Origin: Aurantiacibacter rhizosphaerae
Lineage (GTDB): Bacteria; Pseudomonadota; Alphaproteobacteria; Sphingomonadales; Sphingomonadaceae
Direction of reading: 5' to 3'
Assembly (NCBI RefSeq): GCF_009807005.1
Contig: NZ_WUBR01000003.1
Coordinates: forward strand, 124,001 to 188,000
Length of the DNA stretch: 64,000 bases
Position 1 is the first letter of the stretch, and every line of letters begins with the position of its first letter. Under the pieces are notes generated by a model. The model was not told where the DNA came from. It was given only the letters and a program-made list of their open reading frames with translations, and did not search any database. Positions 36,810 through 54,015 of this stretch are shown one piece after another. The translations under genes were made by a program, and so were the position numbers.

Positions 36810-37874
36810 ATGATTTTACAATGCCCCGCCTGCTCGACGCGTTATGTCGTGCCCGATACCGCCGTTGGCGTGGAAGGCCGCACCGTGCGCTGTGCCAAAT
36901 GCAGGCACAGCTGGTTTCAGGAAGGGCCATCCCTGCCTACGCCAGCCAAGGCCAAACCCGCGCCCACTCCGGCGCCACCACCACCACCTCCTCCTCCTCC
37001 TCCTCCTCCGCCCCCACCACCGCCCCCGCCCCCGCCAGCGCGGCCCTCTGCGCCTGGGCAGGACATGCTGGATGCGGTGGACGGCGGCAGAACGGCCAGC
37101 CTGCATAACCCGTCGCACAAGGTCGACATTTCATACAATGTGGACAGCCCCAAGGTCATCAGTCCGGGCGTTGCCAGTTCCATTCCTTCCGCCGCCGCAG
37201 TGGCGCACGAAGCCGAGGAACACACTGATGAGCAGGCCGAAGAACAGGCCGGGGTCGAGCACCCTGACGAGGCCGATGATAATCGGGGATACGAAGCCGA
37301 GGTAGAACCAGCTGCCGATCACTCCGAAGCGCTGGATGAATATGATCCCGCTACGGACCGTGTGGAGGAACCGCTGGGCTACGCCGCGCTGGCCGATGAC
37401 GGGGAAGACTATTCTCCCTTCGATTCAGAGCCGCCCTTCCGCGCGCGCCGCAATCCGCTGAAGATGTGGACCTGGGCCGCGGCGATCTTTGCCATCGTGG
37501 TGGCCGGTACGATCTTTGCCGTAAGCTATTGGGGGCTGCCCGCATGGGTGCCGGTGGAACGGCCAACCTTCGCCGCCGCCCAGCCGGATCTGCAACTGGA
37601 TTTCCCGCAGGAGGAGCAGGAACGCCGGACCTTGCCGAACGGCACGGAATTTTTCGGTGCCAGTGGCCGTATCACCAATATCGGCACACAGACGCGCAAC
37701 GTACCCACGATCCTGATCGTGCTGCGCGATGCCCGCGATGCCATCGTCTACAGTTACGAGGTGTATCCGCCGAAACGTGAACTGGCGCCGGGAGAGACGG
37801 TGACGATCAACGAAGCGGTCACCGATATTCCCAAGCGCGCGGCCTATGCCGAATTCGGCTGGAATCCAGAGTAA
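36810..37874 (+). CDS. zinc-ribbon (MJ0042) membrane protein with long polyproline tract
   Basis: 354-aa protein. An N-terminal zinc ribbon (C5-PA-C8, then C28-AK-C31), then 21 consecutive prolines (residues 56-76), an acidic region of about 120 residues, one membrane helix ([22 protein letters not shown]) and a C-terminal domain ([28 protein letters not shown]) like DUF3426. So a cytoplasmic zinc sensor domain is joined to a periplasmic domain. The function is unknown; the gene is commonly found beside ftsEX in sphingomonads. The proline run should make translation dependent on EF-P. Confidence 0.85.
36975..37037 (+). repeat. 21-codon proline repeat
   Basis: Four CCA, seven CCT, then mixed CCG/CCC/CCA codons, all proline. 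It starts as trinucleotide repeats and could vary in length between strains. Confidence 0.95.
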
Positions 37875-37993: not shown

Positions 37994-38080
37994 GCGGTCG
38001 TGGCGGAACTGGTAGACGCGCAACGTTGAGGTCGTTGTGGCCGAAAGGCCGTGGAAGTTCGAGTCTTCTCGACCGCACCA
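37994..38080 (+). tRNA. tRNA-Leu (anticodon GAG)
   Basis: 87-base class II tRNA with encoded CCA. Acceptor GCGGTCG/CGACCGC, D arm TGGCGGAACTGGTAGACGCG, anticodon stem CAACG/CGTTG with loop TTGAGGT, long variable arm TGGCCGAAAGGCCGT, and T arm around GTTCGAG. It reads CUC/CUU leucine codons. Confidence 0.97.
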
Positions 38081-38287
38081 TCCAATTCGACAAAAGAACA
38101 ATTTTCGCCTTCGGGCGAACCGCAGCTGGCGGCTGATTCAGGCTTTTGCAGGCGCGCCGACTGATTCGGCAATGCAGTGATGCACGACGGGATCGAATTG
38201 AACGGCCTGTACAATCGGCAAAGCCTTAGTGCGGATTGGCATACGCTTTGATACTGCGTTGCCGCGCTCGGCACGTCATAACGAGGC
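38081..38287 (+). other. intergenic region after tRNA-Leu, no gene seen
   Basis: Between tRNA-Leu and the esterase gene there are 207 bases. I see no ORF, no copy of the tRNA 3' end, no integrase site and no copy of the CCTAT-N3-ATAGG dyad found elsewhere in the cluster. Confidence 0.7.
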
Positions 38288-39772
38288 ATGGATACAGATT
38301 TGCCCACCGACACGGTTACGATCTCCGGCGGAAAGGTGCGGGGACAGTGCTCTGGCACCATCAGGACCTTCCTTGGCGTGCCCTACGCCAATCCGCCGCA
38401 GCGGTTCGAACTTCCAGAACCCCGCACCCCGTGGCAGGATGTGTTTGACGCAACCGATCCCGGGCCCAGCGCGCCGCATCGGATCAGGCCGTTTCCTGCC
38501 ATCAATGTTGCCCCGTTGGTGGGGACGGGAAGCGATGGCAGCGACGGCGACTATCTCAGGCTGAACATCTGGGCCCCGCGCGAGGCCGAGAACGCACCGG
38601 TCATGGTATGGGTGCATGGCGGGGGTTTCGTGGTTGGCAGCAAGGACGCCGCGATCAGCGATGGAAGCGCATTCGCGAAAAGCGGCGTTATCTGCATCGC
38701 GATCAATTACCGCATGGGCATCGACGGCTTTCTGCCCGTGCCGGGTGCGCCCACAAACCTGGGACTGCGAGATATCCTGTTCGCGCTGCAATGGGTGCAG
38801 GACAATGTCGCCGCTTTCGGCGGCGATGCCGATAACGTCACCATATTCGGAGAGAGCGCGGGGGCGATGGCAATTGCTGACCTGATGACGTCTCCCCTGA
38901 CAAAAGGGCTATTCCGCAGGGCCATTGTGCAAAGCGGGCACGGTGCGATGGTGCGCGACATTGGTGTAGCGCAAAAACTTGTCACGAAACTCGCCGCCAA
39001 GCTGAGAGTGACGCCGGACGCCGAGGGTTTTCGAACGGTAGGCCATGATGCTGCGGCGGACGCTATCGATGCGCTGGCAAAACCCAATGCGATTGACCTT
39101 CGCGATGCCGATGGCTTCGAACCTGTGTTCGGCATCAGCCGGTTCATCCCCGTCTATGGAGACGACGTCCTTCCGCAAAAGCCCATCGACGCCTTGCGGC
39201 AGGGGGCAGGCTCCGAGATCGACCTGCTGATCGGAACCAATGCGGACGAGATGAACCTCTATTTCGTGCCCACGGGCGTGCGATCGAAACTGCCACACCT
39301 GATGGCATGGTGGCTTCTTTCCAGATCGCTGCCCGACGCGCGCAAGGCGCTCAAAGCGTATGGCCTGGGCCAGATAGGAAAGCGCGCTGGCGAAGCATTT
39401 ACCGAAGCGACGACCGATCTGGTTTTCCGCTCTCCGGCCCGGCAGTTTGCCGAGGCGCATCAGGGCAACACCTGGATGTACGAAATGGAATGGCAATCGC
39501 CCGCTTGCGGCGGCCGACTCGGCGCGTGTCACGGCATCGAAATGCCATTCGTGTTCGACACACTCGACACGGTAACCGGGCCGCGCGGTCTGGCGGGGGA
39601 AGATCCACCTCATGCGCTGGCGCGCCGCGTCCATAAGATTTGGGCAGACTTCGGGCGCGATGGAACGCTCCCTTGGCCCAGGTGGAATGGCGAGAAGCTG
39701 GTTTACCAACTGGCAGCAGGCAAGGCGATCACCGAACCGGCGATGCCCGCCGCGGCTTTCCTCCCGGACTGA
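38288..39772 (+). CDS. carboxylesterase family hydrolase (type B, cytoplasmic)
   Basis: 494-aa alpha/beta hydrolase of the carboxylesterase type B family. The nucleophile elbow is GES190AG, the oxyanion loop is H110-GGGF, and the acidic and His parts lie further on (GTNADEM, ACHGIEMPF). There is no signal peptide, so it should act in the cytoplasm on an imported ester. It opens the accessory cluster and is followed 10 bases later by the SDR gene. The substrate is unknown. Confidence 0.88.
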   Translation: MDTDLPTDTVTISGGKVRGQCSGTIRTFLGVPYANPPQRFELPEPRTPWQDVFDATDPGPSAPHRIRPFPAINVAPLVGTGSDGSDGDYLRLNIWAPREAENAPVMVWVHGGGFVVGSKDAAISDGSAFAKSGVICIAINYRMGIDGFLPVPGAPTNLGLRDILFALQWVQDNVAAFGGDADNVTIFGESAGAMAIADLMTSPLTKGLFRRAIVQSGHGAMVRDIGVAQKLVTKLAAKLRVTPDAEGFRTVGHDAAADAIDALAKPNAIDLRDADGFEPVFGISRFIPVYGDDVLPQKPIDALRQGAGSEIDLLIGTNADEMNLYFVPTGVRSKLPHLMAWWLLSRSLPDARKALKAYGLGQIGKRAGEAFTEATTDLVFRSPARQFAEAHQGNTWMYEMEWQSPACGGRLGACHGIEMPFVFDTLDTVTGPRGLAGEDPPHALARRVHKIWADFGRDGTLPWPRWNGEKLVYQLAAGKAITEPAMPAAAFLPD

Positions 39773-39782
39773 AGGATAAGAC

Positions 39783-40556
39783 ATGTACCTTGAAAAATTG
39801 CGCCTGGACGGGCGGACGGCCTTCGTGACCGGTGGCGCGCAGGGCATCGGCCTCGCCTGTGCGGAAGCCTTGGGAGAAGCGGGCGCGCAAGTGGTGATCG
39901 CGGATCGCGATGCGGATGGGCTGGAGCGGGCCGTCATGCACCTGCGCGGAAAGGATGTGTCCTGTTGTGGCCAGCTGCTCGATGTCACCGATCCGGCGGC
40001 AGTCACTGAAGCTGCCGATGCCATGATGCAGCAGGAGGGCCGCATCGATATTCTCGTCAACAATGCCGGCATCGCGCGCAGCGATACCGCTGCGGAGGAT
40101 GTGGGCGACGAGCTGTGGCTGAATGTGCTCGACGTCAATCTCAACGGCAGCTTCTGGTGCGCACGCGCATTTGGCAGGCACATGCTGGCCGCGGGACAGG
40201 GCGCCATCGTCAACGTCGGATCGATGAGCGGTTTCATCGTCAACCGGCCGCAGGCCCAGAGCTATTATAACGCATCAAAGGCGGCGGTGCACCAGTTGAC
40301 AAAGAGTCTTGCCGCAGAGTGGGCGGATCGCGGAGTGCGCGTCAACGCCATTGCCCCGACCTATATTGCCACGCCGCTCAATGCCTTTGCCGACAAGGAC
40401 AGCGAAATGTACCGGCGCTGGATCGACGGAACGCCGCAGGGCCGGCTGGGAGAGCCGGAGGAGGTCGCGTCGATTGCGCTGTTCCTTGCATCCGACATGG
40501 CATCCCTGATGACGGGCAGCATCGTCCTGGCAGATGGCGGATACACCTGCTGGTAA
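39783..40556 (+). CDS. SDR-family oxidoreductase
   Basis: 257-aa NAD(P)-dependent short-chain dehydrogenase. Cofactor loop TGGAQGIG (residues 16-23), NNAG at 93-96, catalytic S147 or S149 (GSMSG) and Y162-N-A-S-K166. Acidic residue at the end of strand 2 (VVIADRD) suggests NAD preference. It follows the esterase by 10 bases, so it probably oxidises an alcohol released by that enzyme. Ends CW, as many glucose/gluconate-type dehydrogenases do. Confidence 0.9.
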   Translation: MYLEKLRLDGRTAFVTGGAQGIGLACAEALGEAGAQVVIADRDADGLERAVMHLRGKDVSCCGQLLDVTDPAAVTEAADAMMQQEGRIDILVNNAGIARSDTAAEDVGDELWLNVLDVNLNGSFWCARAFGRHMLAAGQGAIVNVGSMSGFIVNRPQAQSYYNASKAAVHQLTKSLAAEWADRGVRVNAIAPTYIATPLNAFADKDSEMYRRWIDGTPQGRLGEPEEVASIALFLASDMASLMTGSIVLADGGYTCW

Positions 40557-40598
40557 GCCAATCGGCACAGGGTTCCTGACATTCGGCAAACTCTCCAA

Positions 40599-40654
40599 CC
40601 TTTCAGATAGGTTGAAAAGCTGTAAGATAGGTCGTCTAAGAACTATAAGATGAC
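40599..40654 (+). promoter_or_regulatory. three operator-like dyads over the TonB-receptor promoter
   Basis: Copies of the dyad CCTAT-N3-ATAGG at 40599-40611 (CCTTTCAGATAGG, 11 of 13 match), 40619-40631 (GCTGTAAGATAGG, 11 of 13) and 40642-40654 (weaker, 9 of 13). Spacings are 20 and 23 bases. The first lies on the -35, the second in the spacer and the third near the start point of the promoter TTGAAA-N17-TCTAAG (40612-40640). The layout predicts repression by the cluster's GntR protein. Confidence 0.65.
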
Positions 40655-40668
40655 CTTTGGAGAGGCCA

Positions 40669-42873
40669 ATGAAACTGACACCCTGCCACATGCTGTTCGC
40701 CAGCGCAGCCGTACTTGCCATTTCACCCGTTTGCGCGGTTGCGCAAACCTCGCTTGGTGACGATGCGAATGCCTCGGGCGAGGTGACTGATAACCCCGTG
40801 ATGGCGCAGGACATGGGCGGCAATACCATCGTGGTAACCGCTCGCAAGCGTGAAGAAACGCTGCAGGATGTGCCGATTGCAGCCACCGCAATCGATGGCG
40901 ATGTGCTGTCGGCGCGTGGCATCAATTCGGTGCGAGAGGCAGCTTCACTGGCGCCCGGTCTCAACATAAACAGCGACGGCGGCGGGCGTGCGTTCGTGGC
41001 CATTCGCGGCGTGGGTGTCACGCTGGTGCAATCGGTTCAGCCGGGCGTCGGCCTGTTTGTCGATGGCATCTATCGGCCCAACACCGGCTATCTCAACAAC
41101 CCGCTGCTGGATGTCGAACGCATCGAGGTTCTGCGCGGGCCGCAGGGGACGCTTTACGGCAAGAATACGCTTGGCGGCGCGATCAATGTCATCACGCGCC
41201 AGCCCGGCAACAGCTTTGAAGCGCGCGCGAGCGCCAGCTACGCCGGACCCGACGATCAGCTTGTCCTCGCCGGTTCGGTTTCCGCGCCGCTGGTGGACGA
41301 TCTTCTCGCGGTGCGCGTTGCCGCATCCCATCTGGAGCAGGATGGATTCATCCGTAACACGCTGCTGGACATTGACGGCAATCCGCTGAAATCCGATTCC
41401 GTGAACGCGTCGATTCGCTTCACGCCGGACCCGTTAACGCTGACGGTGAACGGCTATTACGACTGGATCGACACGGTGAATACGCCCTATTCATCAGTCG
41501 CCAATCCGGACGACTATTCCCGCGAGATCCGGTTCAACGCGCCGGGCCGCGTCGAATACAAATATCGCGGCATAAATGCGAAGCTGGAGGCGCCCATCGA
41601 TGGCCTCGACAGCACGCTGACGCTGATCGGAGCGCTGGATGCGCGCGACAGTGACAGCCCGGATGCCGATGCAGACTTCGGGTCCGGCGATTTCGTCCGC
41701 TCCACCGGCGGAGATGATCTGCGCACCCGCACCGCCGAACTGCGCCTCGACAGCCAGATCAGCGACAATATTTCCACCCTCATTGGTCTGTTCTACAGCA
41801 ACGAGAAAGTCTCGGCCCGCGATGTCTCACTGATCAAGGGGGCTTTTACAGGCCTGCCGTTCGATATCGAGCGGACCTCCACAAGCGAAACGCGCGCCAA
41901 CACCTATGCGGTGTTCGGGACAATCTTCTGGGAGCCGACGCCCGACCTGGAAGTGGCCCTGGGCCTTCGTTACGACCATGAAAACCGCACAGCCAATGGA
42001 ACGGTCATCACGGTCCTGGGTCCGCTCGGCGCATCAGGTGGTCCATTGCCCGAAGCGCAGATCAAGTCGGACGAATTCCAGCCCAAGCTGACCGTCACGC
42101 GAAACTGGTCGCCCGATTTCATGACCTATGCCTCGGTCGCGCGCGGTTATCGCGGCGGCGGCTTCAACGCGCCCACCGCGCCTTTCCGCACATACCAGGG
42201 TGACAGCGCATGGACATATGAAGTGGGTGCCAAAGTCGCGTCCCCTTCGAACGACTTCAACCTGGCGGCGGCCATCTTCTACAATGACTACTCCGACTAT
42301 ATTGGCCTCAACTCGATTGCCCCTGCCGCTGGTGGCGGGCTGGTGACGGTCGATCTGAACAGCGGCGATGTCGAATCCTATGGCCTGGAGCTGGAGGGGC
42401 TTTTCAGGCCCACCCCGGCCTGGTCGATCTCCGGCGGTCTGACGCTGCTGCATGCTCGCCTCACCAATTCGGACGCCTACACGCAGACCACCGGCCGCAC
42501 GCTCTCCTCCGACCGGCTGACCTTCCAGCCCGACTGGATGGCCAATCTCGCGACTGACTATGTTTTCGAACTTTCGGGTGACAGCGAGTTCGTGCTGAGC
42601 GCGAATGTGACGGGCAAGGGGAAGCGGCTGGCCGCCACGCTGAACGAAACAACGCCAACGTTCCTCGACAGCTACTGGCTCGTCGGCGCGTCTGCCACCT
42701 ATCGCAACGGGCCGTTCGAAATTGCCGCCTTCGTGCGTAACGCATTCCAGGAAGATTACTGGGAAAGCTATATCGAAAAGACCACGCTGCTTCTCGCCGG
42801 ACTTCCGGGGACCGATCTTGGCATCATGGGCGATGCGCGCCGCTACGGCATTCGCGCCAGCTTCCGGTACTGA
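40669..42873 (+). CDS. TonB-dependent receptor of the esterase/hydroxyacid cluster
   Basis: 734-aa outer-membrane receptor. Signal peptide (to VCAVAQ), TonB-box-like/plug start NTIVVTARKREETLQDVPIAATAI, plug blocks RIEVLRGPQGTLYGKNTLGGAINVI, and a barrel ending RYGIRASFRY. This is the sphingomonad type with VTARKREE front and no carboxypeptidase-like domain. The ATG at 40669 begins the signal peptide; GGAGAGG lies just upstream. Five dyad-flanked bases upstream mark it as regulated. It should bring the cluster's substrate across the outer membrane. Confidence 0.92.
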   Translation: MKLTPCHMLFASAAVLAISPVCAVAQTSLGDDANASGEVTDNPVMAQDMGGNTIVVTARKREETLQDVPIAATAIDGDVLSARGINSVREAASLAPGLNINSDGGGRAFVAIRGVGVTLVQSVQPGVGLFVDGIYRPNTGYLNNPLLDVERIEVLRGPQGTLYGKNTLGGAINVITRQPGNSFEARASASYAGPDDQLVLAGSVSAPLVDDLLAVRVAASHLEQDGFIRNTLLDIDGNPLKSDSVNASIRFTPDPLTLTVNGYYDWIDTVNTPYSSVANPDDYSREIRFNAPGRVEYKYRGINAKLEAPIDGLDSTLTLIGALDARDSDSPDADADFGSGDFVRSTGGDDLRTRTAELRLDSQISDNISTLIGLFYSNEKVSARDVSLIKGAFTGLPFDIERTSTSETRANTYAVFGTIFWEPTPDLEVALGLRYDHENRTANGTVITVLGPLGASGGPLPEAQIKSDEFQPKLTVTRNWSPDFMTYASVARGYRGGGFNAPTAPFRTYQGDSAWTYEVGAKVASPSNDFNLAAAIFYNDYSDYIGLNSIAPAAGGGLVTVDLNSGDVESYGLELEGLFRPTPAWSISGGLTLLHARLTNSDAYTQTTGRTLSSDRLTFQPDWMANLATDYVFELSGDSEFVLSANVTGKGKRLAATLNETTPTFLDSYWLVGASATYRNGPFEIAAFVRNAFQEDYWESYIEKTTLLLAGLPGTDLGIMGDARRYGIRASFRY

Positions 42874-42877
42874 TCCG

Positions 42878-44293
42878 ATGCCGCAGGAGCACGCAACAGA
42901 TAGCGCTGGGGCTAGTCCGCCCCCGCTACCCCAAGGCTTCCTGGAAACCTTGCGCAGCCAGTTTGGTGACAAGGTGGAAAGCGGGCAGGCGATCCGCGAG
43001 GAGCACGGTTCGAGCGAAGCACATTACAAATCGATGTTGCCTGATGCTGTCGTCTTTGCCGAGGACACCGACGATGTCGTGGCGCTGATGAACCTGTGTG
43101 TCGAACACGGTGTGCCGCTAATCCCCTTCGGTGCGGGCACTTCCATCGAAGGCAATGCGGCGGCGGTGCGGGGAGGCGTGTCACTTAATATGACGCGCAT
43201 GGACAAGATCGTCGCGGTTCATGCCGAAGATTTCGATTGTGTGGTGCAGCCGGGCGTGCGGCGCGAGGAACTGAACCTGCACCTGCGTGATCAAGGGTTG
43301 TTCTTCCCCATCGATCCGGGCGCAAATGCCACGATCGGCGGAATGGCGTCGACACGGGCCAGCGGCACCAATGCCGTGCGCTATGGCACTATGCGCGATG
43401 CGGTGCTCAGCCTGAAAGTGGTGACGCCGCAGGGCAAGGTCATTCGAACGGCAAGAAGGGCGCGCAAATCGGCTGCGGGCTACGATCTGACACGGCTATA
43501 CGTCGGATCGGAAGGCACGCTTGGCATCATCGTCGAGATCACGCTTCGCCTGTATCCCATTCCCGAAGCGATTTCCGCCGCGGTGTGCAGCTTCGAAACG
43601 CTGGACGGAGCGGTGGATACCGTCGTCCAGTCCATCCAATGCGGCGTTCCGCTGGCGCGGGTCGAAATCCTCGACGCGTTGCAGATGAAGGCGGTCAACG
43701 CATGGTCCAAGATGGATTACCGCGAAGCGCCGACGCTGTTCTTCGAATTTCACGGCAGCGAAAGCTTCGTCGCCGAGCAGGTGGAGACGGTAAAATCCTT
43801 GGCGCAGGACAATGGTGGCGGTGAATTCGCCTGGTCGAACCTGCCGGAAGAGCGCAACAGACTGTGGCGCGCGCGGCACGAGGCCTATTATGCGGCGGTC
43901 AATCTGCGCAAGGGTGCGATCGGATGGGCCACCGATGTCTGCGTTCCGATGAGCCGGCTTGCCGAATGCATTCGCGAAACGCATGCCGAACTGGAGAAGA
44001 GCGCGATACCCGCCACGATCCTGGGGCATGTGGGCGATGGAAACTTTCACGTCGTTTTCTCCATCGACCCCGATGCGCCGGAGGAAATGGACGAGGTCGC
44101 CGCGATCAACCAGAAGATGGTGGAGCGTGCGCTGGCAATGGACGGCACCTGCACGGGCGAACATGGCGTGGGTCTGGGCAAGCAGAACTCGCTGGTTGCC
44201 GAACTTGGTGACGCGGTTGAACAGATGCGGATGATCAAGCGGGTTTTTGACCCGCAGAACATTCTCAATCCGGGAAAGATCTTCGCGCTGTGA
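42878..44293 (+). CDS. FAD-binding D-2-hydroxyacid dehydrogenase (D-lactate dehydrogenase, cytochrome type)
   Basis: 471-aa flavoenzyme of the DLD/VAO family. FAD-binding PCMH part with PFGAGTSIEGNAAAVRGGVSLNMTRM and GVRREELNLHLRDQGLFFPIDPG, then the C-terminal GHVGDGNFHVVFSID and NPGKIFAL blocks typical of D-lactate dehydrogenases. It would oxidise a D-2-hydroxy acid to the 2-oxo acid, passing electrons to a cytochrome or quinone. It starts 4 bases after the receptor stop and its own stop overlaps the next GTG start by four bases (GTGA), so the genes are tightly coupled. Confidence 0.85.
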   Translation: MPQEHATDSAGASPPPLPQGFLETLRSQFGDKVESGQAIREEHGSSEAHYKSMLPDAVVFAEDTDDVVALMNLCVEHGVPLIPFGAGTSIEGNAAAVRGGVSLNMTRMDKIVAVHAEDFDCVVQPGVRREELNLHLRDQGLFFPIDPGANATIGGMASTRASGTNAVRYGTMRDAVLSLKVVTPQGKVIRTARRARKSAAGYDLTRLYVGSEGTLGIIVEITLRLYPIPEAISAAVCSFETLDGAVDTVVQSIQCGVPLARVEILDALQMKAVNAWSKMDYREAPTLFFEFHGSESFVAEQVETVKSLAQDNGGGEFAWSNLPEERNRLWRARHEAYYAAVNLRKGAIGWATDVCVPMSRLAECIRETHAELEKSAIPATILGHVGDGNFHVVFSIDPDAPEEMDEVAAINQKMVERALAMDGTCTGEHGVGLGKQNSLVAELGDAVEQMRMIKRVFDPQNILNPGKIFAL

Positions 44294-45603
44294 CCACCGT
44301 TACGGCGGTGGATGCGCGGCAATCTGCGGCAGGCGAGGACACACCGCCCGCGCCGTGGAAGGCGTTGCTGATCCTTCTCGTCCTCGCTGTTGCGATGGCG
44401 GTGGGCAATATACTGCTCGGCGTTTTCAGCGCGGTGCAGGAGCAGGCGAAGGCCGAACTCGGCTTCAGCGATTTTCAGATGAGCCTGCTGAATGGCCTTG
44501 CGGTATCCATTCCGCTGGCTGCATTTGCTATCCCGGTTGGTCTGCTGGTCGATCGCAGCGTGCGCGTGCGTCTGCTGTTCTGGACTGCGGTCGCCTGGAC
44601 CATCGGCACGCTGCTGACCGCCTTTGCCTACAGCATGCCATTGCTGTTCTTCGCGCGCATGCTGGGCAGCGTGGGCGCGAATATTTCCACCACGATTGCT
44701 ATCTCGCTTGCCGCAGACCTGTGCCTGCCGGAAAAGCGAGGCCGATCACTGCTGTTGCTGACCATTGGCAAATATGCAGGCGCTGGCCTAGCCTTCGCGC
44801 TTGGCGGGTGGCTGCTGGGTTATTTCATCGAGAGCGGCGGTCTGATCGGACTGGCTCCGTGGCGCAGCATCCATCTTGTGCTGGGCCTAGCCAGTCTTGG
44901 GATCGTAGCCGTGCTTGCATTCCTGCGAGAGCCGAAGCGCATGGAAACGCGCGTCGGGCCGCAGGCACCGCTGCGCGAGGTGTTCCGCGAATTGCTCAGC
45001 TACTGGCGCTTCCTCGTGCCGCTGTTCATGGGGCAGATCGGCGTGCTGATGGCGGATGCCGCGGCAACAGTGTGGGCGGCACCCGTGCTGGCGCGGTCCT
45101 ATAACGTTACGCCGCAGGAATTTGCCGGATGGATGGGTGCGGTCATATTCGGGGCAGGCATCCTGGGCGCGATAATCGGAGGTATCGCGGCGGACGCCGG
45201 CCATCGGACGGGCAAGCGCGGGGGCATTCTCATCGCGGCCATCATCGGCTCGATCATTGCGCTGCCTGCCGTGCTGTTTCCCCTCGCGCCCGACACGACC
45301 ATGTTCGCAATCGCCCTGTTCGTATTGCTGGCGGGCGGCACTGTTACCGGACTGGTAACGGCAACTGCGCTGGCGGTGCTTTTGCCGAACGAGCTTCGCG
45401 GGCTTTCGATCGGGACTTTCCTTGCCGTTGGCGGACTGATCGCCTTTGGCGCGGCGCCTACGCTGGTGACACTGGTCAGCGGATGGCTTGGCGGGGAGGA
45501 CCAGCTGCCGATGGCGCTGGCGTTGGTGGGCGGCGTCGTCAGCACCTTGGGTTGCGCCGGCTTCATCATCGCCTATCGCACGGCGCCGCAGCCTATAAGA
45601 TAG
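44290..45603 (+). CDS. MFS transporter
   Basis: 437-aa inner-membrane major facilitator with 12 hydrophobic helices. Motif A is the block PVGLLVDRSVRVRLLFWTAVAWTIGT and its mirror sits in the second half (AADAGHRTGKRGGILIAAIIG). It starts at a GTG (44290) overlapping the flavoenzyme stop by four bases. It should carry the acid or intermediate across the inner membrane. The TAG stop lies inside the first arm of the inverted repeat at 45592-45626. Confidence 0.88.
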   Translation: MTTVTAVDARQSAAGEDTPPAPWKALLILLVLAVAMAVGNILLGVFSAVQEQAKAELGFSDFQMSLLNGLAVSIPLAAFAIPVGLLVDRSVRVRLLFWTAVAWTIGTLLTAFAYSMPLLFFARMLGSVGANISTTIAISLAADLCLPEKRGRSLLLLTIGKYAGAGLAFALGGWLLGYFIESGGLIGLAPWRSIHLVLGLASLGIVAVLAFLREPKRMETRVGPQAPLREVFRELLSYWRFLVPLFMGQIGVLMADAAATVWAAPVLARSYNVTPQEFAGWMGAVIFGAGILGAIIGGIAADAGHRTGKRGGILIAAIIGSIIALPAVLFPLAPDTTMFAIALFVLLAGGTVTGLVTATALAVLLPNELRGLSIGTFLAVGGLIAFGAAPTLVTLVSGWLGGEDQLPMALALVGGVVSTLGCAGFIIAYRTAPQPIR

Positions 45604-45626
45604 GTATTGCCGACCTATCTTATAGG
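45592..45626 (+). promoter_or_regulatory. perfect 14-bp inverted repeat: double operator before the regulator genes
   Basis: CCTATAAGATAGGT, seven bases, ACCTATCTTATAGG: 14-bp perfect arms. Each arm is itself a CCTAT-N3-ATAGG dyad, so two operators lie 22 bases apart (two helical turns). The same dyad is found over the TonB-receptor promoter at 40599. No T-run follows, so it is not a normal terminator. It suggests that the regulators control both themselves and the receptor. Confidence 0.75.
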
Positions 45627-45658
45627 TGATAGCTCTCCGTTCGGAGGAGAGATCGGCA

Positions 45659-46414
45659 ATGAAGATCGAGATTCGTGTGTCTGAAGATATGGTCAGCTAT
45701 ATCGGCCAGGGGCCGTTCCCCGATGGTGAGCCCATGAAGGACACGGTTGTATTCGCATTCTTTGTCACCGGGCAGCAGGGATTGCCCTGGGTCGCCTATC
45801 GCGATGCGCCGGATCTGGATGGTCTGGAAGGCAGCCAGCTCGTCTTCATGGTTCGCGCCGAGGCTTGCCAGCGGGTCTTCTCCCGTTCGCGCGGCCCGTC
45901 GGCGAACTGGCACTTGCCCGAAGCACTGCACCGCGTCGCGCTGTCGATCACCGATTGCGAGGGGCAGGGCGAAGCGAGAAAGACCCTTCGCCTTGCGCGC
46001 AGCATCGAATTGCTGTGCCAATTGCATGCGCATCTGGATGCTGGCGATCTGGTGACTGTCGATTGCGATACCGATATCACGGCGCGGGAGATTGAAAGCA
46101 TCGTGCGCGCGCGCCGCATCATCGATCAACGCTGGCGCGAAAAGCTGACCATCCCCCTGTTGGCGCGCGAAGTGGGCGTGAACCGCGACAAGCTGGTCCG
46201 CCGCTTCCGCGAGGTTTATGGAGAGACCATTCACAATGCGCTGAGCGAACGGCGCCTGGATGAAGCGCGAACGCTGCTGCTATCGAGCGATCTGCCCGTA
46301 TCCAGCGTGGCGCATCGATGCTCCTACATGAGTAACGCCAGTTTCACCCGTGCTTTCAGCCGCCGTTTCGGGCTTGCGCCAACAGCATTGCGCCATCAGG
46401 GGATCGCGGCATGA
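45659..46414 (+). CDS. AraC-family transcriptional regulator
   Basis: 251-aa regulator. The C-terminal double HTH (about residues 155-251) reads LTIPLLAREVGVNRDKLVRRFREVYGETIHNALSERRLDEARTLL and VSSVAHRCSYMSNASFTRAFSRRFG, a typical XylS/AraC pair. The N-terminal 150 residues have no recognised ligand domain. The ATG at 45659 follows GGAGGAGAG; the longer in-frame start at 45626 lies in the operator. Its stop overlaps the GntR start by four bases (ATGA), so the two regulators are made together. Confidence 0.85.
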   Translation: MKIEIRVSEDMVSYIGQGPFPDGEPMKDTVVFAFFVTGQQGLPWVAYRDAPDLDGLEGSQLVFMVRAEACQRVFSRSRGPSANWHLPEALHRVALSITDCEGQGEARKTLRLARSIELLCQLHAHLDAGDLVTVDCDTDITAREIESIVRARRIIDQRWREKLTIPLLAREVGVNRDKLVRRFREVYGETIHNALSERRLDEARTLLLSSDLPVSSVAHRCSYMSNASFTRAFSRRFGLAPTALRHQGIAA

Positions 46415-47118
46415 ACAATCCGCAGATCCGCGCCGAAAAGGGCGGCCTTGTCGCCTCCGCCACCGCTGCCGTTCGCGAGTACATCAGCGAACATGGCCTG
46501 AAGGTGGGCGATAATCTGCCCAGCGAAGGCAGTTTCGCAAGCGAGGTGGGCGTCAGCAGACCCGTGATGCGAGAGGCGTTCCACGCGCTGTCGGCACTGA
46601 AGGTGATCGATGTTGGCAATGGCCGTCGGGCACGCGTGGCGGCCATTGATGGCTCGGTGATGGGGTCTTCCATCAGCCACGCGATCAGCACGTCGCAGGT
46701 TAAACTTTCAGACGTCTGGGAAGTGCGCCGCACGCTGGAATTGCGCACCGCCGAATTGGCGGCAAATCGCCGCAGCGAGGAACAGGCCGATACGATCCTG
46801 TCCTCTGCACACGCGCTTTCGCTCAGCCGGGACGACCGATCACGCACCGCATCCGACACCCAGTTTCACCAGGCTATCGCACTGGCGAGCGGCAACCAGC
46901 TTTACTACCAGATCGTGCGTTCTTTCGAACAGATGATGGAAGTGGCGATCCCGAAAGCCTGGGCGGGCCGCAAGACCGAGGAAGAGCACAGCGAAACTCT
47001 GAGGCTGCACATGGCAGTTGCCGAAGCGATCGCGGATCAGCAGCCCGACAAGGCAAGACAGGCGATGGAGGCGCATTTCGCGCGCTCTATCGGAGATTTG
47101 TTTTCCAGGGACGCGTAG
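46411..47118 (+). CDS. GntR-family regulator with FCD domain
   Basis: 235-aa repressor-type regulator. The winged-HTH block LPSEGSFASEVGVSRPVMREAFHALSALKVI lies at about residues 38-70; an all-alpha FCD ligand domain follows, with DTQFHQAIALASGN and LHMAVAEAIADQQPDKARQAMEAHF. FCD regulators such as LldR, PdhR and GlcC sense small organic acids and bind short dyads with a 3-base centre. The CCTAT-N3-ATAGG sites are therefore its likely targets. Confidence 0.9.
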   Translation: MNNPQIRAEKGGLVASATAAVREYISEHGLKVGDNLPSEGSFASEVGVSRPVMREAFHALSALKVIDVGNGRRARVAAIDGSVMGSSISHAISTSQVKLSDVWEVRRTLELRTAELAANRRSEEQADTILSSAHALSLSRDDRSRTASDTQFHQAIALASGNQLYYQIVRSFEQMMEVAIPKAWAGRKTEEEHSETLRLHMAVAEAIADQQPDKARQAMEAHFARSIGDLFSRDA

Positions 47119-47127
47119 GGCCGCCCG

Positions 47128-47146
47128 GCTTCGCAGATGGCGAAGC
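47128..47146. terminator. short hairpin between convergent genes
   Basis: GCTTCGC / GCGAAGC stem, 7 bp, 5-base loop, 10 bases past the GntR stop. No T-run. Confidence 0.3.
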
Positions 47147-47161
47147 GCAAATATGTGGCGG

Positions 47162-47533
47162 TTACTGGCCGCCCCACCACACCCAGATGAACAGTGCTGC
47201 CAGCACCCATTCGCCAACAGCGGCAATCAGAATGCCGCGACCGGCCCGGCGCGCGAGATATTCGAACAGGCCCAGGAAACCCAATATCGCGATCGCGCCC
47301 GCCATTACCAGACATACGGCCGAGCGGAAATCCGAAGGCGCTGCATCGCGCGCCAAGAAAAACACCAGCCCAAGGGCGAGGTAGACCACTCCGAGACGGC
47401 GAAACAGGATCACCGCGCCATCGCTGACCTCGATACCCCATTCGCGCAACATGCCTGCGCCGCCGAAGATGAAGCGCAGGCCCAGAAGGCTGCCGGCCAC
47501 CGTCATCACCCAGGCCATAATGTGAAAAGTCAT
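47162..47533 (-). CDS. small four-helix membrane protein, function unknown
   Basis: 123-aa inner-membrane protein with four hydrophobic helices (MAWVMTVAGSLLGLRFIF, LGVVYLALGLVFFL, AVCLVMAGAIAILGFLGLF, GILIAAVGEWVLAALFIWVWW). I do not recognise a named family with certainty; it looks like DUF4345-type proteins. The ATG at 47533 has GGGGAA nine bases upstream; ATG 47548 is an alternative. It ends convergent to the GntR gene and has no visible link to the cluster. Confidence 0.65.
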   Translation of the reverse strand: MTFHIMAWVMTVAGSLLGLRFIFGGAGMLREWGIEVSDGAVILFRRLGVVYLALGLVFFLARDAAPSDFRSAVCLVMAGAIAILGFLGLFEYLARRAGRGILIAAVGEWVLAALFIWVWWGGQ

Positions 47534-47645
47534 TGCCGCATTCCCCATCCAAGCCTGCAAGTATCAGGCGTAGTCGTACGCTAATGAACCATTTCGCTCA
47601 AGCGATCAACTCGCATGGGAAGCGGCGCTCAATCGGCGGGGGAGT

Positions 47646-48711
47646 TTACAGCACCTCGTCTTCATCCAGCATGGGGTCGGCAAAGGCGGCCTCTTCAAAC
47701 TGGTTCAGCCTGCGCGCGGCGGTTTCCACCCTACGCACCTCTGCCACATGCATCAGCGCGTCACCCTGGTTGACGACGGGCAGGTTGGTCTTGCCGATGA
47801 TCACGCCATCCATCTGCGCGCGTACCTTGAAATCCACATCGCCGAACGGGTCTGACACCATGCCCACAATTTCATCAGCCATCACCAGATCGCCGGCCTT
47901 CTTGCGGGTGCGGAAGATGCCGCCTTCGGGTGCGCGCAGCCAGCTAGACCGGCTGGATCGCACGGGATCGGCGGCAGGCTTCATACCTGCGGCAGGCGCG
48001 CTCATGCCCAGATGCGCCATCACGCGCATGATGCCCTTCACGCCCACGCGGATGGCAAACTCGTCAAACCGCAAGGCCTCGCCTGCTTCGTAAAGGAGGA
48101 CATCGGTGCCTTCCTTCAGGGCGGTTTCGCGCAGCGTGCTTGGCCTGAGGGGCGCGGTCAATATCGCGGGCGCGCCAAAGGCCATGGCCAATTCCTCTGC
48201 CTTGGGCCGATCCTTGCAGATGCGGATTTGCGGCAGATTGGTGCGGTGAACGGCGGCAGAGTGCAAATCGATGCCGTAATCGCTGCGGCAGATGATTTCC
48301 CTGGTGAACACGCTGGCCAGTTGCGCGGCCAGCGATCCCGATGCCGATCCGGGGAAAGAGCGATTGAGATCGCGGCGATCAGGCAGGTAACGCTGGTGCT
48401 GCACAAATCCGAATACGTTCACCACCGGGATGCAGATCAACGTTCCTGACAGGGATCGTGCGCGCACCTTGCCCAGCAATCGGCGGATGATTTCCACCCC
48501 CACGATCTCATCCCCGTGCACGCCAGCGCTGACGAACAGCGTGGGGCCGGGCTTTGCCCCGTGCAGCACGCGGATCGGAAGCGATATTTCCGTATGGGTG
48601 GACAGCCTGCTGATCGGCAGTTCCACGGTCGCCATCTTGCCGCGCGGAATGGATCGATCGGCCAGGATAAAGGGATCGCGCGCTTCCTGCCCGGCACCTG
48701 CAGAAGTTGTG

Positions 48712-48725
<14 letters not shown>
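47646..48725 (-). CDS. succinylglutamate desuccinylase/aspartoacylase-like zinc hydrolase
   Basis: 359-aa M14-type zinc hydrolase with the metal motif [13 protein letters not shown] and DLHSAAV, and a C-terminal lipoyl/biotin-like block ([23 protein letters not shown]). It starts with a GTG (48725) that overlaps the rimK gene by 14 bases. Members beside rimK may remove glutamyl groups or act on a related N-acyl substrate; that link is inference from context. Last gene of the rim operon. Confidence 0.85.
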
Positions 48726-49617
<892 letters not shown>

Positions 49618-49633
49618 TCGAATTACTCCTGGT

Positions 49634-50089
49634 TCAAGCCTGGCGGCTTTTGATTTTGTGGGCGTCCGGCGTCTGCAGCCATGAGTGGCCGCTATCGACA
49701 AGGAAACGGCGCCGTAAAGAGGTGCGACCGATCAGCATCGGAAATTTCATCTCGGACCGGTCGGCAAGGCTGATGTCGGTGCGGATCTGCGTGTCACCGA
49801 TTTGCAGCTGCGTCTTGATGACATAGCGGCTTTGCGTCTCTCCGTTTGAACTGGTGATGCCGCGAATATCGACGTGAACGGCTTCGCATTGATGACGAAC
49901 GCCATCCCAATCGACGGCGAACTGGACGAAACGCTGCCCGTCCCGCTCAAATTCATCCAGCACATGGGCATGGAGCGACGATGTGCGCGCGCCGGTATCG
50001 ATCTTGGCCGGGATGCCGGACAGTCCCAGCTCTGGCAGGCCGACAAGCTCGCGCCAGCCGACGACGGGTTTGGGCTTTATCTTACGAAT
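49634..50089 (-). CDS. rimB: RimB, ATP-dependent zinc protease family, with probable AUU start
   Basis: About 151-aa aspartyl-protease-fold protein of the RimB type, which trims or controls S6 modification with RimK. The family opening ([34 protein letters not shown]) is fully in frame. Upstream of it there is no ATG, GTG or TTG before an in-frame TGA at 50104-50102. The best start is ATT at 50089, with AAGGA eight bases upstream, reading (M)[10 protein letters not shown]. Catalytic DTGA is present, and [16 protein letters not shown] follows. An ATT start or an undetected frameshift are the two explanations. Confidence 0.85.
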
Positions 50090-50243
50090 GAATCGCGTCC
50101 TTCAGATGGCCGTGTTGCATCGGGGTGTTTTCTCGATTTGCGCCCCTTGTCGCACAATCCTTGCGCATCTTCCATGCGAGAGGGCATGGCGTGGCGATGT
50201 ATCAGTTTGCGCGGGCAAGCACGCCCGAATTCTCTATGTGCCG

Positions 50244-52772
50244 CTATATGTCCGGCAGCGATTGCTCTGCAAAGCCCCAGCCGGACAACGTCTTGCTGCT
50301 GGCGCGGTCCTGCAGGCGTTTCGCATCGTCGATGGAGAAGGGCTGCGTGTTGTCCATCTTCTTCAACTCGTTCCAGCCGATCGGCACCGCCACGGGCGCG
50401 CCGGAGCGGGCGCGGGCGGAATAGGGCAGTACGGCGGTGCTGCCGCGCTGGTTGCGCAGCCAGTCGATGAAGATCTTACCCTTGCGCTTCGCCTTGCTCA
50501 TGGTGGCGGTGAAGCGATCCGGCTCTGCAAGGCTCATCGCCTCGGCAAAGCGGCGGGAAAAATCCTTGTGCGCCTCCCATGAATGGCCCGGGACAAGCGG
50601 CACCACCACGTGCACGCCCTTGCCGCCAGACAGCATGGCAAAGCTGACCAGCCCGATATCGGAAAGCCGCGCCCTGATGTCGCGCGCGGCCGATTTCACA
50701 TCGTCGAAGTCCAGCCCCTCGTCCGGGTCCAGATCGAACACCATGCGATCCGGCAGTTCCACGTCATCGGTTCTCGATCCCCAGCCGTGAAATTCGATCG
50801 TGCCCATCTGCACGCATTGCAGGATGCCGCGCGCATCCTCGATATAGAGGTAGTCCTCGGTCCCGCCGTCCTTCTCCTTGATCGGCACGCTGTGCACGCC
50901 ATCGCCGAACGCGCCGCTATCGTGTTTCTGAAAGAAGCATTTCTTCGCTCTTCCCTGCGGACAGCGCACCAAGCTGGCAGGACGGCGCGCGGCGAACGGC
51001 AGCATGATCGGCGCGACGGCCTCGTAATAATCGGCCAGCTGCCCCTTGGTCTGACCGCTATCAGGAAAGACGACTCGGTCCCGGCTGGAGATCTTAACCT
51101 CCGCTTCCGCCTTCGGGGTGCTGGACGGTTTCTCCGGCTTCACGGCGCTGGCAGGCTTGTCCGCGCGCAGGCCTAGATAGCTGCCGTGACGGATGTTTCC
51201 GTCTGCTGTAAATTCGGCAAAGCCCACTTCGGCCACCAGCTTGGGCGTCAGCCATGTTACGCCGCGCGCATCGGCTTTTGTCACCTCGACGGGAGCAGTC
51301 TTGCGCTCAAGGCGCCGCATCTTGGCGGCCAGCGAATCCATTTCCTCCTCGGTAAAGCCGGTGCCCACGCGGCCTTTGTAAACCAGCTCGTCGCCCTCGT
51401 GCTGCGCCATCAGCAGGGAGGCGAAGGGACGGCCCTTGGCGGAGCTATCCTTCAAGCCGACGATCACGAATTCCTGCCGCCGGGTGCATTTCACCTTCAC
51501 CCAGCTTTTTGATCGGGAATGGCGATAGGGTGCGTCCATCTTTTTCGAGATGATGCCCTCCTGTCCCGCGCTGCACATGGCGTCGAACAGCTTCTCGCCT
51601 GCGCCGATAACGTGATCCGCCAGATGAACAGGCGGCTCTGCGTTTGCCAGCAGTGCCTCCAACCTCTCCTTGCGCTCTATATTCGTAACCTTGGCCAGAT
51701 CGTCCCTTGCAAGCTCCAGCAGATCGAAGGCGTGGAAGGCCAGCTTGTCGGATTTGGACTGGCTGCCGTGGCCGCGTTTCAGCACCTGTTGCAGGGTGGA
51801 GAAATCGGGATTGCCCTTCGCATCATAGGCGATGATCTCGCCATCTATCAGGCAGGCGGGCAGGTCCATCGCGGCGATAGCGTCTACCAGCGGTGCGAAT
51901 TTCTCCGTCCAGTCCTTCCCGCTGCGGGTGTAGACGCGCACCTTGTCACCGCTGACCGCGATCATGGCGCGGTATCCGTCGAACTTTATCTCGTGCATCC
52001 AGCCATTGCCGGTGGGCACATCATCCACCAGCGTGGCGAGCTGCGGCTTGCGGAATTTGGGCAGCGCCGCCGATTTGCTTCTGCGGGCCGGTTTAGCCTT
52101 GGTGGCATTGCGGGCAGATGCCTTTTCCATCTGCGCAAGGAAGGCATCGTCCTTCTTGCCTGCCAGCGGATATTCGCCGTCCTTATCAGCCGCGATTTCG
52201 GCCATGGATCGACCGGTCAGCACGCTGGTGAGTTCGCGCTCGACCAGCGCGTCACCCCCTTCGGCATGCTCATCCTGCAATTTGCGCAGCAGCCAGTTCT
52301 CGCGCTTTTCGCCGGGCTTCTTCTTCAGACGGATCAGCAGCCATTCGCCCTTCATTCGCTCCCCTTCGAGGATGAAATGCAGATGGCCCTTGTCGATATC
52401 GCTGGCGCTCTTGCCCTTGATCGGAGCCCAGCGCCCGCGATCCCATAGCATGATGGTGCCACCACCATATTCGCCCTTGGGGATGGTCCCCTCGAATTCG
52501 GCATAGGACATGGGGTGGTCTTCGGTGCGCACCGCCAGCCGCTTTATATCGGGATCGGGGGAGGGTCCCTTGGTGACGGTCCAGCTTTTCAGCACCCCGT
52601 CTATCTCCAGCCGCAAGTCCCAGTGCAGCCGCGTTGCATCGTGTTTCTGGACGATGAAAAGGTCGCCGCTCTTGCTGCTTTGCGCCTTGCCCGATGGTTC
52701 GGGCGTCTTTTTGAAATCGCGCTTGGCGTTATAGGTTGCAAGCGGATCGTCGGCCTTGCGCTTGCTGGCCAT
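50244..52772 (-). CDS. ligD: DNA ligase D (non-homologous end joining)
   Basis: 842-aa multifunctional repair enzyme. Domain order: 3'-phosphoesterase (residues about 35-190, FIVQKHDATRLHWDLRLE), ATP ligase with nucleotidyl-transfer Lys263 (EIKFDGYR), then a C-terminal primase-like polymerase from about residue 565. This order differs from mycobacterial LigD, where the polymerase is first. The ATG is one base from the ku stop (TGAcATG), so ku and ligD are translated together. It seals double-strand breaks. Confidence 0.95.
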   Translation of the reverse strand: MASKRKADDPLATYNAKRDFKKTPEPSGKAQSSKSGDLFIVQKHDATRLHWDLRLEIDGVLKSWTVTKGPSPDPDIKRLAVRTEDHPMSYAEFEGTIPKGEYGGGTIMLWDRGRWAPIKGKSASDIDKGHLHFILEGERMKGEWLLIRLKKKPGEKRENWLLRKLQDEHAEGGDALVERELTSVLTGRSMAEIAADKDGEYPLAGKKDDAFLAQMEKASARNATKAKPARRSKSAALPKFRKPQLATLVDDVPTGNGWMHEIKFDGYRAMIAVSGDKVRVYTRSGKDWTEKFAPLVDAIAAMDLPACLIDGEIIAYDAKGNPDFSTLQQVLKRGHGSQSKSDKLAFHAFDLLELARDDLAKVTNIERKERLEALLANAEPPVHLADHVIGAGEKLFDAMCSAGQEGIISKKMDAPYRHSRSKSWVKVKCTRRQEFVIVGLKDSSAKGRPFASLLMAQHEGDELVYKGRVGTGFTEEEMDSLAAKMRRLERKTAPVEVTKADARGVTWLTPKLVAEVGFAEFTADGNIRHGSYLGLRADKPASAVKPEKPSSTPKAEAEVKISSRDRVVFPDSGQTKGQLADYYEAVAPIMLPFAARRPASLVRCPQGRAKKCFFQKHDSGAFGDGVHSVPIKEKDGGTEDYLYIEDARGILQCVQMGTIEFHGWGSRTDDVELPDRMVFDLDPDEGLDFDDVKSAARDIRARLSDIGLVSFAMLSGGKGVHVVVPLVPGHSWEAHKDFSRRFAEAMSLAEPDRFTATMSKAKRKGKIFIDWLRNQRGSTAVLPYSARARSGAPVAVPIGWNELKKMDNTQPFSIDDAKRLQDRASSKTLSGWGFAEQSLPDI

Positions 52773-52773
52773 G

Positions 52774-53610: not shown

Positions 53611-53736
53611 TTCTCACCTCCGTTTGGACAATCAGCGTTTATCGCCGCATTTCGTTTCGCGCTCCACGGCAAAATGACCGTGGCAGTACCGGAACATCGC
53701 GCCTGCTTATCCGTTATTCGGGCAAAGGAGATTCAC

Positions 53737-53967
53737 ATGATTGGTAAGCTTATTGGCGCCGGCGTTGGCGCAGCACTCGGCAAGGAAACCCGCAAGATCG
53801 GTGGCCCGACCGGCGCAATTCTTGGCGCGGTCGCCGTTCCATTGGTAACCCGCCTGCGCATTCCGGCACTGCTGGCACTGGCCGGCGGCGGCTATCTGGC
53901 AAAGCGCTTGGCGGACAAGTCCACGGCGCCCGCTGCGCCGACGACGCCGACGACCCCAGCGGTCTGA
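53737..53967 (+). CDS. small glycine-rich membrane-like protein
   Basis: 76-aa product, MIGKLIGAGVGAALGKETRK at the front and two Gly/Ala-rich hydrophobic stretches (IGGPTGAILGAVAVPLVT, IPALLALAGGGYLAKRL), then a Pro/Thr tail. The spaced glycines look like a glycine-zipper membrane protein. AAAGGAG lies seven bases before the ATG. Not recognised; it has its own terminator. Confidence 0.7.
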   Translation: MIGKLIGAGVGAALGKETRKIGGPTGAILGAVAVPLVTRLRIPALLALAGGGYLAKRLADKSTAPAAPTTPTTPAV

Positions 53968-53990
53968 TAAAACACCATTGATTTCGAGAA

Positions 53991-54015
53991 GGGCGGTCCG
54001 TGTGGCCGCCCTTTT
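53991..54015 (+). terminator. terminator of the small glycine-rich gene
   Basis: Stem GGGCGG(TC) / (GG)CCGCCC with a short loop, then CTTTTC, 23 bases past the stop. Confidence 0.85.

Follow-up and report, generated by a model that had tools for sequence, protein, structure and literature searches.

Seven same-strand genes of Aurantiacibacter rhizosphaerae recur together in other genomes, in an order conserved far beyond chance, and we put the chances at about even that they form a mobile module for the catabolism of an ester whose alcohol is a sugar alcohol of the mannitol or arabitol type and whose acid is a small hydrophobic D-2-hydroxy acid, for example D-lactate. The genes lie at 38288-47118 of the window analysed here, a stretch of 64,000 nt (assembly GCF_009807005.1, contig NZ_WUBR01000003.1, positions 124,001 to 188,000) whose first letter is position 1. 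They encode a carboxylesterase, a short-chain dehydrogenase/reductase (SDR), a TonB-dependent receptor, an FAD-dependent D-2-hydroxyacid dehydrogenase (DLD), a major facilitator superfamily (MFS) transporter, an AraC-family regulator and a GntR/FCD regulator. The reading draws on the recurrence of the gene set, the active site of DLD and the replacement of the SDR gene by a gene of the mannitol dehydrogenase (DH) family.

A seven-gene cluster conserved in order

Inspection of the window showed all seven open reading frames (ORFs) to be intact on the + strand. Their Pfam families (COesterase; SDR adh_short_C2; TonB Plug and barrel; FAD_binding_4/FAD-oxidase_C; MFS_1; AraC-type HTH_18; GntR and FCD) agree with those named in a preliminary description of this DNA. 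That description also held that most of the genes overlap their neighbour or lie 4-10 bases from it, and four of the six junctions do so. A gap of 10 bp separates the esterase and SDR genes, the DLD gene follows the receptor gene after 4 bp if its ATG is at 42878 (the listed DLD ORF begins earlier, within the receptor gene), and the DLD/MFS and AraC/GntR pairs each overlap by 4 bp. The SDR/receptor junction is not tight (about 112 bp, with the receptor ATG read at 40669), and the MFS/AraC gap measures 22 or 55 bp, according to which start is chosen. The G+C content of the cluster region was 0.605-0.625 in 2-kb bins, inside the range of the window (0.590-0.651).

Named bacterial genomes were scanned with an alignment of five esterases, and all locus counts refer to the best 80 loci. 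Genes were counted in stretches of up to 10 kb on each side, with identity cut-offs set for the count. The esterase was present at 50% identity or more in 69 of the 80 loci, and 63 of these 69 also had DLD. All seven families occurred in 41 loci; among the 63 loci with esterase and DLD, 32 had the exact seven-gene order and 7 more had the order minus the SDR, so that this check, set beforehand in the preliminary description, came out clearly in favour of a conserved unit. Two loci (L044, L095) missed the strict order test solely due to other homologues upstream. The hosts, which include bacteria from soil, leaves and water, were by record title Aurantiacibacter, Tsuneonella, Croceicoccus, Sphingopyxis, Sphingomonas, Novosphingobium, Sphingobium, Brevundimonas, Caulobacter and Hyphomonadaceae; in most loci of the last groups (towards Brevundimonas, Caulobacter and Hyphomonadaceae) the MFS gene lies 3' of the GntR gene, or the DLD, GntR and AraC genes are on the opposite strand. 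Pairwise identities of the seven proteins were correlated over 41 loci (0.64-0.87), which fits a travelling unit and is confounded by species relatedness.

Six of the 69 esterase loci had no DLD match in the stretch (L040, L058, L061, L079, L085, L092). The stretches of L040, L058 and L079 stop shortly past the esterase gene; genome searches placed DLD outside the stretch for L061 and L085 and did not find it in the genome of L092. DLD was present in 19 of 20 esterase-bearing genomes searched, these being SDR-less or odd, and two minimal loci (L050, L056) consist of esterase, DLD and GntR genes. This co-occurrence, together with the minimal loci, supports the earlier view that esterase and flavoenzyme belong together.

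Some carboxylesterase match was found in 132 of 148 relatives of the window genome, and esterase orthologues (at least 58% identity) in 5, with the next match at 38% over equal length. DLD reached at least 72% in those same 5 relatives; lower values were 68% in a genome without the esterase orthologue (G146), a partial 65% match (G108) and at most 62% in others, and a DLD match at E 1e-120 was found in 27 of the 148. Among the matches listed, with at most 18 first-look candidates scored per genome, SDR orthologues (at least 81%) occurred in 3 relatives, all within the 5 esterase carriers and inside the cluster. Distribution within the genus is patchy: among 40 genomes including the window genome, the cluster was found in that genome, G011 and G019. 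A further genome of the genus without the cluster (G013) has a lone 73-residue esterase start, 77% identical (L035 9846-10061, that is G013:C1:541845-542063), which is likely a deletion remnant.

Actinobacterial esterases (41-49%) were considered as a second version of the system and rejected, with no DLD or TonB-receptor match in any of nine stretches (neighbours read in eight). In four of these loci (L103, L106, L107, L112; 45-49%) a small protein of one recurring type follows the esterase homologue, perhaps forming another, unrelated esterase system.

The esterase and the proposed acid arm

The esterase scored 298.5 bits against PF00135 (cut-off 27). Residues S190, E321 and H415 were invariant in an alignment of five orthologues and are read by us as a Ser-Glu-His triad. 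Its best solved relative is carboxylesterase 7w1j (330 bits), a member of the same family.

Both DLD domains, FAD_binding_4 and FAD-oxidase_C, scored above their Pfam cut-offs. The best solved relative was mouse LDHD (8jdc, 531 bits over ORF residues 67-520), followed by glycolate oxidase as the next distinct protein (232 bits), and DLD scored 336.6 bits on the GlcD model TIGR00387 against a cut-off of 567.9. According to the available part of PMC10589216, the LDHD residues that bind Mn and the hydroxy-carboxylate are Arg347, His398, His405, Glu442 and His443 (mouse numbering). All five are identical in DLD (R385, H436, H443, E480, H481) and are kept in 67-68 of 69 tblastn matches of at least 50%. 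DLD, a bacterial cluster gene product, thus has its catalytic and Mn residues in common with mammalian LDHD but differs from it in the side pocket, which reads I/Y/A/V (Val101 to Ile, Trp351 to Tyr, Ser365 to Ala, Ile407 to Val). Across related matches the pocket is mostly hydrophobic (I/V/L; Y/F; A/T/P/S/I; V/I). In the same portion of that paper, LDHD was active on D-lactate and larger hydrophobic D-2-hydroxy acids and inactive on malate, 2-hydroxyglutarate, glycolate and D-3-hydroxybutyrate (PMC10589216). The residue comparison supports a hydrophobic D-2-hydroxy acid as the probable DLD substrate.

DLD is the sole LDHD-type gene of the window genome, the next relatives being at most 30-32% identical. 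One in-frame TAG interrupts the DLD gene in both the L101 and L102 genomes (G187, G188), the latter with two copies on one contig; that gene is either broken or recoded. Of the 69 loci, 18 had an FMN-dependent gene of the L-lactate-dehydrogenase type in their stretch. Its product has the FMN_dh domain and scored below the cut-offs of PRK11197 (342.8 vs 376) and LldD (309.5 vs 550), and its presence fits a lactate-like acid of either hand.

The SDR and the probable sugar-alcohol arm

The two top solved relatives of the SDR are a polyol DH (3awd, 294 bits) and a galactitol DH (2wdz, 247 bits); the third scored 167 bits, 127 and 80 bits less. Unlike these enzymes, the cluster SDR is placed behind an esterase and without a polyol ABC transporter. 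Among the NCBIfam matches listed (25 of 234), the SDR stayed below every equivalog cut-off, and the broad model PRK07231 alone was passed (227.3 vs 215). SDR relatives of 59-65% identity on plasmids had sugar or polyol gene neighbours in 7 of 7 regions read; these were hand-picked from 40 records, and two came from one genus.

Clustering of neighbouring ORFs mixed true families with antisense frames and flank genes, and five accessory families in or beside the cluster were chosen by hand. A ROK kinase nearest to fructokinases occurred in 15 of 69 loci. It has the ROK domain, its best model was ScrK (232 bits, cut-off 400), and the solved structures nearest to it, 1xc3 and 3ohr, bear the name fructokinase. 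Homologues of this kinase are also present in the window genome, in other loci that resemble sucrose loci on a look at the sequence. A mannitol-DH-family gene was found in 7 loci. Its product carries Mannitol_dh and Mannitol_dh_C, has as its best match in the PDB the long-chain mannitol 2-dehydrogenase 1lj8 (389 bits), and scored 294 bits on the D-arabinitol 4-DH model (cut-off 600). This protein family, which comprises alditol and aldonate dehydrogenases, is other than that of the SDR and is absent from the window cluster.

The two genes exclude each other. Among 63 loci, none had both, 46 had the SDR only, 7 had the mannitol-DH-family gene only and 10 had neither (Fisher p 3.5e-5, indicative only, as the loci are related and non-independent). 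The search was extended to 44 whole genomes picked from the 80 loci. Mannitol-DH-family members of at least 53% identity to the L057 member, a cut-off fixed post hoc from the gap between 53% and 45%, occurred in 8 of them; all 8 belong to the 15 genomes that lack the cluster SDR, and the 29 that have it contributed none. The L059 genome carries the gene away from the cluster, and the L043 copy has an in-frame stop. A search of 20 genomes, SDR-less or odd, found no SDR orthologue outside the cluster; the highest identity was 49%, in one genome. Two unrelated enzymes doing the same job would give such a pattern. Since the mannitol-DH-family gene replaces the SDR and fructokinase homologues recur, the SDR is probably an alditol DH. 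An in-frame 82-aa SDR remnant with its middle part gone is present at 11492-11740 of L060, where the cluster has neither SDR nor mannitol DH in the stretch.

These observations bear on a different substrate, an ester of the aryl-lactate or depsipeptide kind (resembling rosmarinate or enniatin) whose partner is not a sugar alcohol, with the SDR acting on another hydroxyl. TonB receptors are suited to larger molecules. Pockets of the LDHD type, moreover, take hydrophobic side chains as large as the one in 2-hydroxyoctanoate in the available part of PMC10589216. The mutual exclusion of SDR and mannitol-DH family, the co-occurrence of fructokinase homologues and the sugar-cluster contexts of SDR relatives nevertheless argue otherwise, and no aromatic-ring gene was seen among the recurrent neighbours annotated, which are part of all neighbours. 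We regard this substrate as improbable.

Accessory hydrolases raise a further candidate. An Abhydrolase_3 (ABH3) esterase was found in 26 of 69 loci and a GDSL hydrolase in 7 of 69, and such extra esterases would suit multiply acylated substrates such as the polyol esters of yeasts (PEFA of Rhodotorula, liamocins of Aureobasidium), from which esterases would free mannitol or arabitol while DLD served some other step. PEFA are real acetylated mannitol and arabitol esters in the available part of PMC5749799, an acyl-CoA ligase gene lies upstream in four loci (L040, L044, L075, L095), and the strain names of several hosts mark them as leaf or root isolates. The acids of PEFA are, however, 3-hydroxy acids in that same part of PMC5749799. 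They are a poor fit to DLD, as LDHD, whose catalytic residues DLD matches, is inactive on D-3-hydroxybutyrate (PMC10589216, available part). Furthermore, no beta-oxidation set was seen among the recurrent neighbours annotated, and the yeast esters seem to us a slim prospect.

Tandem boxes and two probable transcription units

A tandem core, TCGGCAnA, was read from two promoters of the window (Table 1). It recurs as a direct repeat, and 21 bp was the sole enriched spacing. Pairs at this spacing were found 5' of the TonB-receptor gene in 23 of 56 cases, the esterase gene in 10 of 64 and other genes in 2 of 214, vs 35 of 3200 random stretches. The single box TGCCGNNCGGCA, with at most one mismatch, was found 5' of 31 of 64 esterase genes (9 exact) vs 130 of 1280 random stretches (7 exact); it was derived from esterase upstream regions, so this count is partly circular. 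The TonB-receptor count (44 of 55) is independent. Upstream of other genes the box was found for DLD in 3/65, MFS 0/58, ABH3 0/28, AraC 1/49 and SDR 3/49, and for accessory genes in 1/19 (L-lactate type), 1/14 (fructokinase), 1/7 (GDSL) and 3/7 (mannitol DH).

The AraC-type regulator probably acts on these putative 21-bp tandem operators, and the sequence suggests two probable transcription units sharing one operator type, esterase-SDR and TonB receptor-DLD-MFS-AraC-GntR. A single operon was rejected, the 112-bp SDR/receptor gap bearing its own box pair. The GntR/FCD regulator, whose nearest named models among the NCBIfam matches listed (NanR, LldR, GlcC, PdhR) all scored under their cut-offs, is a less likely owner of the boxes than AraC, given the direct-repeat layout of the pairs at 21 bp and the lack of a box at loci without AraC. 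The latter point rests on small numbers: in L049, L050 and L056, which have DLD and no AraC match, no box (one mismatch allowed) precedes the esterase. A box does precede it in L048 and L068, the stretches of which stop short of AraC.

The exact tandem pattern has six matches in the window genome, and the two window pairs are the sole ones outside predicted ORFs. On these exact matches a wider regulon in this genome was rejected, as the other four lie inside predicted ORFs. With one mismatch there were 62 matches vs 10 for the reversed control, so that single matches mean little. The single box has 13 exact matches in the genome. Four were inspected: the cluster's own, a pair member at C1:26361 and two more, the last three being inside predicted ORFs.

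Genomic setting and mobility

The cluster lies in a variable spot (window 37994-54000) bordered by tRNA-Leu(GAG) and by a conserved gene at 54000. Six relatives were compared. In three (G014, G018, G019) the same borders, a zinc-ribbon gene plus tRNA-Leu at one end and the 54000 gene at the other, are separated by 9.4, 7.1 and 4.4 kb of different DNA, respectively, with no cluster gene in it. No downstream window gene was found in the stretches of G030, G011 and G013, and in G011 the cluster is on a different contig from tRNA-Leu(GAG). A duplication of a tRNA-Leu attachment site was not found within the window.

Esterase orthologues were found on 3 of 72,556 plasmid records. Plasmid p1 of Novosphingobium ES2-1 has the full order, with the esterase annotated as two overlapping coding sequences; on the PP1Y Mpl plasmid, by match positions, the SDR is directly behind the esterase orthologue; and the mobilizable pYT40 has the cluster without SDR or GntR, flanked by two IS6100 copies with Tn3 further out. 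A close DNA-level plasmid copy of the whole cluster was not found, the sole match being the SDR stretch in two Rhizobium records. The IS6100-flanked copy would also suit detoxification or chance hydrolysis of foreign esters, and COesterase enzymes are often promiscuous. Many genomes instead keep, in one fixed order, a dedicated receptor with an importer, two oxidases and two regulators, which points to nutrition, and we hold detoxification to be highly improbable.

Several other genes share this region. Before the tRNA gene, 36810-37874 encodes, on a look at the sequence, a zinc-ribbon-like protein with a long proline run. Adjoining the cluster on the - strand (47646-49963) are AstE/AspA-like, RimK-like ATP-grasp and small ORFs, of which the AstE domain alone was confirmed; they resemble a peptide-ligase/desuccinylase module. 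Adjacent LigD-like and Ku-like genes at 50244-53610 on the - strand look like a non-homologous end-joining pair.

Table 1. Features of the cluster and its left border (window coordinates).
Feature	Position	Strand	Basis or location
tRNA-Leu(GAG), left border of variable spot, flank only	37994..38080	+	between zinc-ribbon gene and cluster
Tandem boxes TCGGCA-N15-TTGGCATA, 21-bp spacing, putative AraC operator 1	38215..38243	+	5' of esterase
Carboxylesterase, COesterase, 494 aa	38288..39772	+	Pfam and solved relatives; no signal peptide by eye
SDR dehydrogenase, probable alditol (polyol) DH, 257 aa	39783..40556	+	Pfam, solved relatives, mannitol-DH-family swap
Second tandem pair TCGGCACA...TCGGCAAA, 21-bp period, putative operator of TonB-receptor unit	40562..40590	+	5' of TonB receptor
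TonB-dependent receptor	40669..42873	+	Pfam; signal peptide by eye
FAD-dependent D-2-hydroxyacid dehydrogenase (DLD), LDHD type	42878..44293	+	Pfam, 8jdc match, catalytic residues
MFS transporter, probable inner-membrane importer	44290..45603	+	Pfam; direction inferred
AraC-family regulator	45626..46414	+	Pfam; alternative ATG 45659
GntR/FCD regulator	46411..47118	+	Pfam

Discussion

In the pathway that we propose, the TonB receptor would carry the ester across the outer membrane, as its family suggests, and the MFS protein would carry it across the inner membrane. The cytoplasmic carboxylesterase, with its intact triad, would cleave it. The SDR would oxidise the alditol to a ketose, which a fructokinase encoded elsewhere in the genome may phosphorylate, and the LDHD-type flavoenzyme, by its active-site residues, would oxidise the D-2-hydroxy acid, yielding a 2-keto acid (pyruvate in the case of lactate). 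The AraC-type regulator would probably control both units through the 21-bp tandem boxes, and the FCD regulator probably senses the hydroxy acid. The preliminary description had proposed import of an ester, its hydrolysis, and oxidation of the alcohol and of a D-2-hydroxy acid; the alcohol can now be narrowed to a sugar alcohol, while the ester and the origin of both parts in one molecule stay at the level of inference.

That one imported ester would supply both arms is suggested by the pairing of the esterase with the SDR in one unit and with DLD in the minimal loci L050 and L056. Furthermore, free lactate or mannitol should need neither a TonB receptor nor an esterase. The same facts bear on a co-regulated scavenging set, in which lactate and sugar alcohols would be separate nutrients, leftovers of fungal or lactic fermentation, with the esterase and TonB receptor serving a third, unrelated acylated compound. 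The comings and goings of polyol enzymes (missing from 10 of 63 loci) and of extra lactate-type enzymes are what such a set would show, as is the siting of the window genome's fructokinase homologues in other, sucrose-like loci. It would leave unexplained why the esterase is common to the DLD-bearing minimal loci and the esterase-SDR unit, why 19 of the 20 esterase-bearing genomes searched, SDR-less or odd, have DLD, and what a TonB receptor, which free lactate or mannitol should not require, is doing in the cluster. We consider a scavenging set rather unlikely.

Several points weigh against the sugar-alcohol ester. Among the NCBIfam matches listed, the cluster proteins stayed below every named-equivalog cut-off, as did the examples of fructokinase, L-lactate DH, mannitol DH and ABH3, and the top NCBIfam model of the mannitol-DH-family protein is fructuronate reductase (368 bits, cut-off 603). 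More distant members of that family (38-45%) also occur in SDR-bearing genomes, and some member is present in 30 of 44. Ten of 63 loci have neither alditol enzyme in the stretch, so that the polyol arm is not obligatory, and a fructokinase gene is not in the window's cluster. Galactitol-2-DH, a related SDR, formed no ketose from D-mannitol in the available part of PMC12193009, a result that would leave several alditols possible for the SDR; the S. meliloti context has a xylulokinase, pointing to a pentitol. Of the upstream regions, 54 of 64 for the esterase and 33 of 56 for the TonB receptor showed no box pair. Finally, a natural polyol ester of a D-2-hydroxy acid, including lactyl-mannitol or polyol-lactate, was not found in searches of the open PMC literature, and the yeast esters carry 3-hydroxy acids in the part of PMC5749799 available.

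TonB-receptor catabolic clusters of sphingomonads and Caulobacterales are a general known kind, in which receptor, inner-membrane importer, hydrolase, oxidases and local regulators likewise stand together. The set found here (COesterase, alditol-type and LDHD-type dehydrogenases, AraC and FCD regulators) matched no described cluster in searches of the open PMC literature. No paper describing the gene set, the ester or bacterial liamocin breakdown was found among open PMC full texts, searched mostly with multi-term queries and with most subscription papers outside their scope. The preliminary description had recognised no described pathway with this gene set, and within those searches that statement stands. 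We rate the cluster as a TonB-receptor catabolic cluster with an undescribed pathway, within the literature searched.

The cluster represents a probable nutrient pathway in dozens of alphaproteobacterial genomes, whose substrate is narrowed by gene swaps: the SDR for the mannitol DH, the added L-lactate-type dehydrogenase and the added esterases. Tentatively, and with some doubt, we suggest that an undescribed natural class, sugar-alcohol esters of D-lactate-like 2-hydroxy acids, may be common in soil, on leaves and in the sea and may sustain a transferable module in Sphingomonadales, Caulobacterales and Hyphomonadaceae. If this is true, the module could be used as a probe for finding such esters. 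If the reading is right, it would point to an overlooked natural product class or a fungus-bacterium food link, and would give functions to genes recorded merely as 'carboxylesterase family protein' or 'FAD-linked oxidase'.

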